Source: Methylomonas paludis
GTDB lineage: Bacteria > Pseudomonadota > Gammaproteobacteria > Methylococcales > Methylomonadaceae
DNA: 64,000 nt
Direction of reading: 5' to 3'
Assembly (NCBI RefSeq): GCF_018734325.1
Contig: NZ_CP073754.1
Coordinates: 3,472,001-3,536,000 of the forward strand
Shown here one piece after another: positions 22,955 to 26,620 of the stretch; the stretch's first letter is position 1, and each line of letters begins with the position of its first letter. The position numbers and the translations under genes were made by a program. The notes under the pieces are model-generated. The model saw only the letters and a list, made by a program, of their open reading frames with translations. It ran no database searches and had not been told where the DNA came from.

Positions 22955-23764
22955 TCAGTAACAGTGTTCCGGACCGGGAAATTGTTGTGATTTAACCGCT
23001 TGATGATAACTGCGCACCGCTGCGTCTATGCCAGCAGCGGTTTCAATAAAATTTTTGGAAAATCTGGGCCGGTTGCCGATGCTGATATTCAGCATATCGT
23101 ATAACACCAACACTTGACCATCACAAGCCGCTCCCGCACCTATTCCGATTACTGGAATACTGAGCTGTTGGGTGATTTGCGCTGCCAGGGCCGCCGGAAT
23201 ACATTCCAGAACCAGACAATCGGCACCCGCCTGTTGTATAGCCAGCGCATCTGCAAGCAGCTGTTGGGCTTGCCCGGCATCCCGACCCTGTACTTTGTAA
23301 CCTCCGGCCCGGTTGACGGATTGCGGCAACAACCCCAGATGACCGCAGACCGGAATACCTTGCGCGACCAAAAAACTGATGATTTCCAGTTTAGGCCCTT
23401 CCAGCTTGACCATTTGCGCGGCACCGGCCTGGGTTAAGCGCGCCGCGTTATGTAATGCCTGTTCTGGGGTGGCATAGCTGGCAAAAGGCAGGTCTGTGAC
23501 CACAAATGCGCGTTTTCTGGCTGCGGCCACGATACGGCTGTGATAGACCATATCATCCACGGTTACCGGTAAGGTGCTGTGATGGCCTTGCACGACCATG
23601 CCCAGCGAATCGCCGACCAGTATCATATCAATTCCGGCCTGATCCAGCACTGTGCTGAAGCTGGCATCATAAGCGGTGAGGCAGCTGATTTTTTCACCCC
23701 GCTGTTTCATGGCTTTTAAATCAGGGATGGTCAGGGTTTTGGCGCTTTCGGCATACAAATTCAT
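22955..23764 (-). CDS. panB: 3-methyl-2-oxobutanoate hydroxymethyltransferase
   Basis: 269 residues. PanB adds a hydroxymethyl group from methylene-tetrahydrofolate to 2-oxoisovalerate, forming ketopantoate. Visible: ISCLTAYDASFSTVLDQAGI, LVGDSLGMVVQGHHSTLPV with metal-binding Asp, MVKLEGP, and IPVIGIGAGAACDGQVLV. The start overlaps the folK stop by four bases (ATGA). Folate-dependent PanB next to folK is a frequent arrangement in gammaproteobacteria. Confidence 0.98.
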   Translation of the reverse strand: MNLYAESAKTLTIPDLKAMKQRGEKISCLTAYDASFSTVLDQAGIDMILVGDSLGMVVQGHHSTLPVTVDDMVYHSRIVAAARKRAFVVTDLPFASYATPEQALHNAARLTQAGAAQMVKLEGPKLEIISFLVAQGIPVCGHLGLLPQSVNRAGGYKVQGRDAGQAQQLLADALAIQQAGADCLVLECIPAALAAQITQQLSIPVIGIGAGAACDGQVLVLYDMLNISIGNRPRFSKNFIETAAGIDAAVRSYHQAVKSQQFPGPEHCY

Positions 23765-24267
23765 GCTGCCAGCCTCTGCATGCCCTCGGCAGACGGGCCG
23801 CTTGCCAATAACTGCTGCAGACTGCCTTTGCCGGGAACCAGCAATTCCGTGCCGGCAATATCGGCCAGCGGGTAAAGTACAAAAGCCCGGTTCACCAGTT
23901 CCGGATGCGGCACCTGCAAATCGGGCAGATCGATAATCTGGTCGGCATAGAGCAAAATATCCAGATCCAGGGTTCTGGCTCCCCAGCGCACACTACGCAG
24001 GCGGCCGTGGGCGTTTTCTATCTGTTGCAGCTGGCGGAGTAAATCCAGGGCCGGCAAGCGGGTGCCGATATGCATCACGGCATTAATATAGTCCGGCTGA
24101 TCTTGCGGGCCTACCGGTTGGCTTTGATAAAGCGGTGAGAAGGCGATTTCGACCACATCCGGCAGTTGGGCGATATCAAGCCGGGCCTGATTGACTTGCT
24201 GCAAGGGGTTTTCCAGATTACTGCCCAGCCCGATAAACGCAGGCAGGTATGAAGTCGGCAAGCTCAT
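23761..24267 (-). CDS. folK: HPPK, 2-amino-4-hydroxy-6-hydroxymethyldihydropteridine diphosphokinase
   Basis: 168 residues. FolK activates the pterin in folate synthesis by pyrophosphate transfer from ATP. Visible: AFIGLGSNLENPLQQV at the start, SPLYQSQPVGPQDQPDYINAV, and the RWGARTLDLDILLYAD signature with metal-binding Asp residues, followed by VPHPELVNRAFVL. It overlaps both neighbours by four bases (pcnB upstream, panB downstream), so pcnB-folK-panB-panC is a tightly coupled leftward operon, the same order as in E. coli. Confidence 0.97.
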   Translation of the reverse strand: MSLPTSYLPAFIGLGSNLENPLQQVNQARLDIAQLPDVVEIAFSPLYQSQPVGPQDQPDYINAVMHIGTRLPALDLLRQLQQIENAHGRLRSVRWGARTLDLDILLYADQIIDLPDLQVPHPELVNRAFVLYPLADIAGTELLVPGKGSLQQLLASGPSAEGMQRLAA

Positions 24268-25622
24268 TCCACATCGGCCTGTTTGGCTTTGCTGCGGTAG
24301 CGGCTGGATTTACGTCTGGTTTTGCCCGAGGCATTTTTGGGCGGGGCGGTCATTTTTTGGCGTTGTTCATCGTCACCGTCCTGAAAACGTGTCCACCACG
24401 TTACCAGTTGCGGATCGGCACCGCCGGTTTCGGCGCGCAGCGCCAGAAAGTCATAAGCCGCCCGGAATTTGGGCTGTTCCAGTAGCCGGTAGGGTCTGGA
24501 ACCGGTGGTTTTGCTGAATTTGTTTTGCAAAAACCAGACATCGCGCATGGCCTGGGTAATGTGGCGGGGCATGGCGGTGATTTTAATCTGGTTGTTTAAA
24601 ATCTCATTCGCGGCATTCTGATAGGCTATGGTTTCATTTTCGCCGCGATCAAGCTGTTTTTTTACGGCGATCTGTAATGGCTCCCAGAGCATGGCGGCCA
24701 ATAAAAAATAAGGCGTGAGGCTTTTGCCATCGGCAAAGCGCCGGTCGGAGTTTTCCAGGGCTTTGATTAAGAACAGGCGGGGAAAGTCATGTTCCAGGGT
24801 TTCCAGGCATTTATCCGAAGCGGGAAACAGGATGGCAAACAGGCCGTAATGTCTGAGCATTTCGAAGGTTTGCAAGCCGTAGCCGGCCAGAAACAGCTTG
24901 AGGGCTTCGTCGTAAAGCCGGGCCGAGGGTATACTTTTTAATAGCTCGGCATATTCATGTATGGGTTGTTCGGTATCGGGATGCAGGGTAAAACCCAATT
25001 TAACGGCAAAGCGAATGGCGCGTAACATGCGTACCGGATCTTCCCGGTAACGAATGGCCGGATCGCCGATCAGGCGTAAAATGCCGGCCTGATGATCCAG
25101 CATGCCGCCGGTGTAATCCACCACGGAAAAGTCGCGGATATTGTAGTACAGGGCATTGACGGTAAAGTCGCGCCGCCAGACATCCTGTTCCAGGGTGCCG
25201 AACACATTGTCGCGCAGCAGCCGGCCATCTTCATGCACGACGTGCTGATCGGCTTCATCCGGTTCGGAACCGCGAAAGGTGGCGACTTCGATAATTTCCC
25301 GGCCAAAAAATACATGAGCCAAGCGGAAGCGTCTGCCGATAATCCGGCAATTGCGAAAAATCTGTTTAACCTGCTCCGGGCTGGCATTGGTTGCCACATC
25401 AAAATCTTTAGGCTCGCGGCCCAACAGTAAGTCGCGGACGCAACCGCCAACCAGATAGGCTTCAAAATTAGCTTTTTTTAGTCGCAACAGTACCTTCAAC
25501 GCATTTTCGCTGATTTGCGAACGGGAAATGCAGTGTTCGGGGCGCGGATAAATCTTTACTAGCGGGGCGGCCGGTTTTACCTGCTCGGCAGGGGTAAAGA
25601 TTTTTTTAAAAAAACTTAAAAT
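24264..25622 (-). CDS. pcnB: Poly(A) polymerase I, start at a rare AUU codon
   Basis: PcnB adds poly(A) tails to RNAs and speeds their decay. The longest ORF from a usual start codon (TTG at 25499) begins too late, inside the conserved ISENALKVLLRLKKA block. In the same frame homology continues upstream (YPRPEHCISRSQ, then FFKKIFTPAEQVKP) for 41 codons with no ATG, GTG or TTG, up to an ATT at 25620-25622 that has AAGGA eight bases before it. This gives 452 residues, close to the 465 of E. coli. E. coli pcnB is known to start at AUU, which limits and autoregulates it. Further features are LVGGCVRDLLLGREPKDFDV (nucleotidyl transfer) and RRFRLAHVFFGREIIEVATF. The basic C-tail is typical. Confidence 0.85.
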   Translation of the reverse strand: MLSFFKKIFTPAEQVKPAAPLVKIYPRPEHCISRSQISENALKVLLRLKKANFEAYLVGGCVRDLLLGREPKDFDVATNASPEQVKQIFRNCRIIGRRFRLAHVFFGREIIEVATFRGSEPDEADQHVVHEDGRLLRDNVFGTLEQDVWRRDFTVNALYYNIRDFSVVDYTGGMLDHQAGILRLIGDPAIRYREDPVRMLRAIRFAVKLGFTLHPDTEQPIHEYAELLKSIPSARLYDEALKLFLAGYGLQTFEMLRHYGLFAILFPASDKCLETLEHDFPRLFLIKALENSDRRFADGKSLTPYFLLAAMLWEPLQIAVKKQLDRGENETIAYQNAANEILNNQIKITAMPRHITQAMRDVWFLQNKFSKTTGSRPYRLLEQPKFRAAYDFLALRAETGGADPQLVTWWTRFQDGDDEQRQKMTAPPKNASGKTRRKSSRYRSKAKQADVE

Positions 25623-25635
25623 GACGATATTCCTT
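25623..25635 (-). promoter_or_regulatory. Ribosome site deciding the pcnB AUU start
   Basis: On the - strand AAGGA (25631-25635) is followed by eight bases and then ATT (25622-25620). This is ideal spacing and no other usual start codon is placed after it in frame. It is the main evidence for the AUU start. Confidence 0.75.
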
Positions 25636-25972
25636 TGGTTGTTTTTAGTTTGCTTGCATCTGTAAAGGCCAGGATTACAGGGAGTTGAGGCGGCATACGC
25701 CTAATAATACCGCCAAGTTTAGACGGAATGCGCAAATTTTGCGAATTTTAAGCCATACCAGGCAAACTGCTCAGACACAACTATACTTTACTTATCATAC
25801 CATCTAGCCGGTTTTCAGCTCAATCAAGCCCACCTTTCACAATCTAGGCTGATATAGTAAAATTATGCGGTAGCATAAATTGCTAAAGGTGTGTCATTGT
25901 ACATAAGAACAAAACCGTCATTGTCTCAGGCATGGCAAATGGCGATCAATTAAAGATGCTTGGGGGGGATTT
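25636..25972. other. Spacer between divergent pcnB and a small ORF
   Basis: About 340 bases that should hold the leftward pcnB promoter and a rightward promoter for the small ORF at 25973. It is AT-rich, but no box pair with good spacing was found on either strand. No repeat or RNA gene was recognised. Confidence 0.3.
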
Positions 25973-26152
25973 ATGTTTAATAAAGTTTTGAATGCTTTAA
26001 TCGACCAACCTTTGTTTACCAGTCTGTTTGCCGCCGACTTTTTGGTTTTGGTATTCCACAGACCACCGTTTCTGTTTTCTATTCTGATGGAAGGCGCTTT
26101 GGTGGGCATGAGTATGTATTTGGGCCAAAAGCTCGAATTATTTAATAAGTAA
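25973..26152 (+). CDS. Small hydrophobic protein, 59 residues
   Basis: An ORF of 59 codons beginning MFNKVLNALIDQPLF. A GGGGGGG-type purine run lies four bases before the ATG, which serves as a ribosome site. The product is hydrophobic (FAADFLVLVFHRPPFLFSIL, then EGALVGMSMYLGQKLEL), with one or two likely membrane segments. I do not recognise the family. Its TAA is followed with no gap by the TTG start of the RDD gene in the same frame, so the two are probably coupled. An ORF exists on the opposite strand over the same bases, but it lacks a ribosome site. Confidence 0.55.
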   Translation: MFNKVLNALIDQPLFTSLFAADFLVLVFHRPPFLFSILMEGALVGMSMYLGQKLELFNK

Positions 26153-26620
26153 TTGCGGCAGAAAGCACGAAATCATGCCAAAAAACCCGGCGTACTGCTA
26201 GTTGGTACGCCGGGTTTTTTACGCCGACTGGGGGCTATTGGTTACGACGCGCTGTTGTTGCTGGCTGTGTTGTTTCTGTCCACCAGTTTGGCCTTGCCTT
26301 TTAATGGCGGTGAGGCGTTTGCTCCAGACCAGTTTATTTATCCGGTTTATTTGCTGCTGGTCGGCTTTTTGTTTTACGGCTGGTTCTGGACTCACGGTGG
26401 CCAAACTCTGGGCTTACGGGCCTGGAAAATGCAGTTGCTGAGCTTTGACGGTGAATCGGTGAGCTGGCGGCAGGCTTTGATCCGGTTTGGCGCCGCCATC
26501 CTGTCCTGGGCCTGTCTGGGTCTGGGTCTGATGTGGTGTGTTATCGATCCGCAAGGCTTATGCTGGCATGATCATTTGTCCAAAACCCGGCTGCACAAGG
26601 TAGAACGAGAAAAGGCCTGA
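26153..26620 (+). CDS. RDD-family membrane protein
   Basis: 155 residues with three or four membrane spans. The RDD fold is visible: the conserved Arg and Asp in PGFLRRLGAIGYDALLLLAV, then WFWTHGGQTLGLRAWKMQLL, and the C-terminal WCVIDPQGLCWHDHLSKTR. The start must lie before the conserved RRLGAIGYD, and the only in-frame candidate is the TTG at 26153, next to the TAA of the small ORF before it. A strong intrinsic-terminator-like hairpin lies inside codons 10-23. Function of RDD proteins is poorly known; some are ion antiporters. Confidence 0.8.
   Translation: MRQKARNHAKKPGVLLVGTPGFLRRLGAIGYDALLLLAVLFLSTSLALPFNGGEAFAPDQFIYPVYLLLVGFLFYGWFWTHGGQTLGLRAWKMQLLSFDGESVSWRQALIRFGAAILSWACLGLGLMWCVIDPQGLCWHDHLSKTRLHKVEREKA
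26181..26220 (+). terminator. Intrinsic-terminator-like hairpin inside the RDD gene start
   Basis: Left arm 26181-26195 pairs perfectly over 15 bases with 26205-26219, with a 9-base loop and a run of six T at 26215-26220. It would stop transcription after the small ORF ending at 26152. Because the conserved RDD sequence is coded by the right arm and just beyond, terminator and gene overlap; this suggests attenuation of the RDD gene. Confidence 0.75.

Follow-up and report, generated by a model that had tools for sequence, protein, structure and literature searches.

The AUU start codon of Escherichia coli pcnB was reportedly described by Binns and Masters in 2002 (Mol Microbiol 44:1287), and genes preferring non-AUG starts are said to have been surveyed by Gvozdjak and Samanta in 2020 (arXiv). 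The start in E. coli is already published, and the breadth of its conservation was not found described: the literature examined contained no statement on conservation of the pcnB AUU outside E. coli, a point that may be discussed in Binns and Masters 2002. The text of PMC8208693, on pcnB evolution, contains neither AUU nor ATT, and its single "start codon" stands in the legend of a table. The E. coli genes to which the papers examined ascribe an AUU start are infC and pcnB. The infC gene, with its AUU/AUC start, encodes initiation factor IF3 and is autoregulated by it in E. coli, the factor discriminating against the gene's AUU (PMC9410913). Conserved AUU and AUA starts lower the expression of cvfC1 and ccpN in staphylococci, according to PMC13009471, and PMC3997798 states that deregulated poly(A) polymerase I (PAP I) slows growth or kills.

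The pcnB locus

The window is the whole analysed stretch of 64,000 nucleotides from Methylomonas paludis. Its pcnB is followed, in minus-strand order, by folK, panB and panC, and the features of the locus are as follows.

24264..25622, minus strand: pcnB (poly(A) polymerase I), 452 codons and a stop when read from the ATT; TIGR01942 match and frame reading
25620..25622, minus strand: ATT, almost certainly the start codon of pcnB; family alignment of 88 loci
25631..25636, minus strand: Shine-Dalgarno sequence AAAGGA, 8 nt before the ATT; G columns of the family, pairing of -5.6 kcal/mol
25701..25703, minus strand: in-frame TAG bounding the pcnB start region; frame reading
25497..25499, minus strand: TTG, first usual in-frame start codon of pcnB, an ordinary Leu codon; column of 76 loci
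25794..25799, minus strand: predicted -10 box TATGAT before pcnB; window and relatives, motif count
25818..25823, minus strand: predicted -35 box TTGAGC before pcnB; window and relatives, motif count
23761..24267, minus strand: folK, overlapping the end of pcnB by 4 nt; TIGR01498, 136.2 bits, cut-off 54.1

Behind the TAG at 25703-25701, the reading frame of pcnB stays open from 25700 to 24264, and from this TAG down to the TTG at 25499-25497 it contains no ATG, GTG, TTG or CTG. Coordinates and frame reading agree here with the original prediction, which had described a stretch free of ATG, GTG and TTG ahead of the TTG. The ATT at 25622-25620 lies exactly 41 codons upstream of the TTG at 25499, and the further AUH codons of the stretch are ATC at 25628, 25601 and 25514 and ATT at 25553 and 25529. 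The protein read from the ATT matched TIGR01942 (PcnB) with 509.7 bits, above the curated cut-off of 305.65. Against the equivalog model NF008634 (PRK11623) it scored 490 bits, below the cut-off of 702; we take this model to be narrower, so the score leaves the identity as PcnB standing. When a separate CCA-adding enzyme was looked for in the genome of the window, a second homologue, 31% identical, was observed (G000:C1:3350681-3351337).

Four-base overlaps join pcnB to folK and folK to panB, and both read ATGA (window 22955-25622). Given these overlaps, translational coupling may pass the limiting effect of a weak pcnB start on to folK and panB.

Conservation of the ATT codon in the family

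We read 88 pcnB loci of the family, namely the window's own, 26 of 28 titled loci and 61 from further family genomes. The titled loci (Methylomonas, Methylococcaceae, Methylococcales, Methylobacter, "uncultured proteobacterium") were assigned to the family on protein identity, and two loci of Thioalkalivibrio (L028 and L029) were left out of the family count. The 88 loci represent part of the family, in which 200 of 201 genomes had pcnB matches. At the position of the window's ATT, 83 loci had ATT, two had ATC (L059, L245) and one had GTT (L072), and two loci were unreadable. Three loci were dropped: L027 (motif unreadable), L022 (cut by a contig end) and L072, which fell outside the ATT/ATC count as the mapping required a codon beginning with AT. 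Removal of identical rows reduced the 85 mapped loci to 76 distinct ones, with ATT in 74 and ATC in two.

Among the remaining isoleucine codons of the same genes, ATT accounted for 752 of 1582 (47.5%), ATC for 38.9% and ATA for 13.5%, and four mostly-isoleucine internal columns held a mixture of all three. The ATT excess over this background had a binomial p of about 1e-21, for loci that are related and not independent trials, and with the AT prefix required in mapping it is an excess over ATC or ATA only. Such fixation of the third base is the pattern expected of a start codon under selection.

Homology among the 76 distinct loci begins at the ATT. Downstream of it, residues were conserved (L/F, F, F, K, K) and the codons showed coding periodicity, with the third bases most variable; upstream of it we found variable residues, stops, and codon positions that vary alike apart from the Shine-Dalgarno signal. 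The 41 codons ahead of the TTG are indeed homologous to those of relatives, as had been proposed, and N-terminal homology is kept from the ATT on. The nearest in-frame upstream stop lay 4 to 79 codons before the ATT in the family loci. ATG, GTG and TTG were absent between this stop and the ATT in 48 of the 76 loci, and 26 had none ahead of residue -34 relative to the LVGG motif.

A guanine was present at -11 in 72 and at -10 in 54 of the 76 loci. Matches of at least four bases to TAAGGAGGTGA occurred just upstream of the ATT in 46/76, against 63/304 control windows further upstream. The median pairing energy of the Shine-Dalgarno signal in the family was -5.15 kcal/mol (range -2.4 to -8.3), close to the value in the window, where the well-spaced signal that had been predicted is AAAGGA at 25636-25631. 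The start region folded no better than shuffles (z +1.48; 191/200 shuffles fold at least as well), and an Rfam search of 25450-26160 gave no match at the gathering threshold.

Because of the constancy of the third base, the Shine-Dalgarno signal about 8 nt upstream and the loss of homology just upstream, the sequences indicate that pcnB almost certainly starts at the AUU at 25622-25620. The AUU start put forward in the original prediction is thereby upheld by an aligned ATT in 83 of the 88 loci, and the N-terminus of PcnB is corrected by it.

Upstream ATG codons and a predicted promoter

The arrangement TTGAGC-18-TATGAT precedes pcnB in the window (25823-25794) and in relatives, at varied distances from the gene. 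TTGANN-17/18-TAT[GTC]AT occurred in 35 of the 76 family loci, compared with 0.4 expected from mononucleotide shuffles. TATGAT is likely the -10 box of a promoter TTGAGC-18-TATGAT, and the ATG embedded in it would lie upstream of the 5' end of the transcript. The predicted -10 box of the window promoter can mimic an in-frame ATG start in relatives.

An in-frame ATG was found upstream of the ATT in 16 of the 76 family loci. We considered such an ATG as the true start in some genera and rejected it: nine of the 16 were part of a TATGAT box, with a -35 match ahead of only four of these nine. The remaining seven loci had no -10 box accounting for the ATG. A conserved upstream ATG in relatives had been named as a finding that would speak against the AUU start; upstream ATGs do occur in these 16 loci, and those of the seven loci are unexplained. 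In L243 and L244, an ATG lies three codons upstream of the ATT. The in-frame ATG of L072 is likewise within TATGAT, and with GTT at the aligned place the start of this locus is unexplained.

Short ATG reading frames before some family genes pointed to a possible leader peptide with which the AUU start would be coupled, an idea that was dropped since the genus has no conserved ATG beyond that of the -10 box. The upstream frame reads YYT before pcnB in L090, L094, L108, L113, L118 and L135. The DNA encoding YYT is TGGTATTATAC in L090, L113, L118 and L135, an extended -10 look-alike common to distant families.

Other families of the order and the class

Two further families of the order, f4 and f6, were compared. 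The aligned place held ATC in 14, CTC in two and ATA in two of the 18 f4 loci read, and CTG was found two codons upstream of it in 16 of them. Six of the seven f6 loci could be mapped, with ATT in four, ATC in one and TTT in one; all six had TTG two codons upstream. The loci concerned are listed below.

f4 loci with CTG: L067-L069, L075-L080, L082, L193, L196, L198, L201, L202, L212
f6 loci with TTG: L194, L195, L197, L200, L204, L205

No clear Shine-Dalgarno sequence was seen by eye in the f4 and f6 loci, save AAGGA before the ATC of L074. We think that the start has shifted two codons earlier in these families, to CTG or TTG; initiation at the ATC itself in f4 is also compatible with the data. 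Ten of the 18 f4 loci carried an in-frame ATG somewhere as far as residue -34, and in five of these one ATG was within TATGAT. As for the suggested look at the same place elsewhere in Methylococcales, the ATT recurs in nearly all loci of the window's family, and f4 and f6 seem to be CTG/TTG-started. One genome of the order (G241) has two copies of pcnB, one complete and the other divided between two adjacent reading frames (C1:10050-11423; C1:4626609-4627930).

The class sample comprised 149 genomes, about one per family, of which 140 had a pcnB match at E 1e-80. Loci were obtained for 131 of these 140 genomes, and 130 were analysed, as the motif search did not pick up L230. In 18 of the 130, the stretch from the upstream stop to residue -34 contained no ATG, GTG or TTG, and these loci were regarded as forced; 12 of these also lacked CTG, and an in-frame ATT was present in the stretch in 16 of the 18 (exceptions L111 and L171). 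The forced loci were scattered over the tree, the neighbourhood of E. coli included; this FastTree tree is weak at many of its forks and served only to show the scatter. ATT peaked at residue -38 (16/130, with 2 and 5 at the neighbouring positions), where ATC was found in three loci. The length of the N-terminal leader varies between lineages, with ATT recurring. In the stretch ending at residue -34, 74 loci had an in-frame ATG and 56 had none, so an AUG start is possible in over half of the class loci, and the AUU start is widespread, not universal. The proposal that the rare start is conserved across distant gammaproteobacteria is supported in part, by the scattered forced loci, but 74 loci have an in-frame ATG that might be used.

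In the class, in-frame ATT codons had a stronger Shine-Dalgarno signal than non-start-like codons (p 2e-4), and the same test was not significant for ATG (p 0.11). However, TAC, GGC and TAT ranked higher than ATT, which leaves the test no more than suggestive. When the start was picked by the Shine-Dalgarno signal alone, ATT was chosen in 34/130 loci and ATG in 28/130; among the loci with the strongest signal, ATT was found in 20 of 53, whereas reading in the other two frames gave 4 and 5.

infC as an internal control

In the genome of the window, infC (L254, C1:2459804-2460310) has an ATC start after GGAGG, directly behind an in-frame stop. The best start by Shine-Dalgarno signal in the family (L254 and L284-L312) was ATC in 29 of 30 loci and ATT in one, and 28 of the 30 lacked any usual start codon ahead of the conserved core. 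Pairing energies, obtained with the same measure as for pcnB, were mostly -9.3 kcal/mol (range -6.4 to -9.8). In the class, 36 infC matches gave 30 loci, one of which, the window's own, was assigned to the family. Of the other 29, the motif script could read 25, and here the codon choice was looser than in the family, with ATC in 16, ATT in eight and ATA in one; 20 of the 25 had no usual start. The codon split in the family, ATT in 74/76 for pcnB versus ATC in 29/30 for infC, gave a Fisher p of 1.5e-22 for loci that are related. Each gene thus keeps its own rare codon in the window's family.

Proposed mechanism and alternatives

The best explanation, which we regard as highly probable from the sequences compared, is that pcnB is translated from the AUU at 25622-25620, probably with little product per mRNA, and we infer a link to IF3. 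The ribosome would bind AAAGGA and initiate on the AUU, a codon that would pair with the initiator tRNA at two of three bases only. IF3 would normally reject such a codon, and little poly(A) polymerase would therefore be made per mRNA; the yield of PcnB would be lower with abundant IF3 and higher when IF3 is in short supply. The weak start probably holds PcnB at a low level. That AUU would limit PcnB here is carried over from the work on E. coli, and control of pcnB by IF3 in M. paludis would likewise be an analogy. The rare start had been proposed to be regulatory; this view is reasonable, and the near-invariant third base and the modest Shine-Dalgarno signal would fit it.

The AUU start could also be real and no more than tolerated drift in a gene whose product is needed in low amounts, without IF3-dependent control. 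Other families seem to use CTG or TTG or, in the class loci with an in-frame ATG, possibly ATG, which would mean that the AUU itself is not a general requirement. However, drift would hardly hold pcnB at ATT while infC holds ATC in the same family, and we consider this alternative rather unlikely. It is very improbable that initiation occurs at another AUH codon. The ATC at 25628, two codons upstream, and the ATC at 25601, seven codons downstream, are both in frame, but the column of the former holds AAA, AAG, AGT, AGA and others in relatives, and that of the latter holds ATC in 25, ATT in 17 and ATA in 14 of 76 loci, the remainder not being isoleucine. The ATC at 25628 also sits just 2 nt from AAAGGA. 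Translation from the TTG at 25499, the first usual in-frame start codon, with the upstream homology as a relic or chance, is scarcely credible: the upstream codons are protein-conserved with coding periodicity from the ATT on, the column is one of mixed leucine codons and hence no conserved start (CTG 30, TTG 22, TTA 11, CTC 5, CTT 4, CTA 3, GTT 1 of 76), and such a start would cut the conserved SRxQxSENAL-like stretch of the family before LVGG.

With initiation at the AUU as the preferred reading, the near-invariance of this codon in the methanotroph family, together with scattered families of the class that lack usual starts, moves the pcnB start from a curiosity towards a selected trait and opens the question of whether IF3 sets the level of RNA polyadenylation. 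A wider proposal, which is conceivable though we hold it only tentatively, is that the weak pcnB start is an old control device under selection across much of Gammaproteobacteria. The third base would be set per gene (AUU with a weaker Shine-Dalgarno signal in pcnB, AUC with a strong one in infC), giving two different responses to the level of IF3 and linking the tailing and decay of RNA to the status of translation initiation.

Comparison with known systems

The pcnB genes of E. coli and the window are the same gene with the same AUU codon and the same folK neighbour at a 4-nt overlap. ATT is the annotated pcnB start in the E. coli RefSeq record examined, in line with the statement about E. 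coli from which the original prediction had set out. That prediction also expected automated gene callers to trim the N-terminus at 25499; in the E. coli record, the RefSeq annotation does include the ATT. The two proteins differ in that LVGG begins at residue 57 in the window and at residue 64 in E. coli, and the leader sequence differs too. The Shine-Dalgarno pairing of E. coli pcnB (-9.1) is stronger than that of the window (-5.6) and the sequence is closer to the codon (3 nt). The ribosome site of E. coli pcnB, called poor in the literature, is not poor by this pairing measure, apart from the close spacing. Like pcnB, infC has a forced AUH start that is kept across the family; however, the family infC combines AUC with a strong Shine-Dalgarno signal, whereas the family pcnB combines AUU with a weaker one. 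The staphylococcal cvfC1 and ccpN resemble pcnB in their conserved non-canonical starts, but they are other genes from another phylum and have an extended Shine-Dalgarno sequence.
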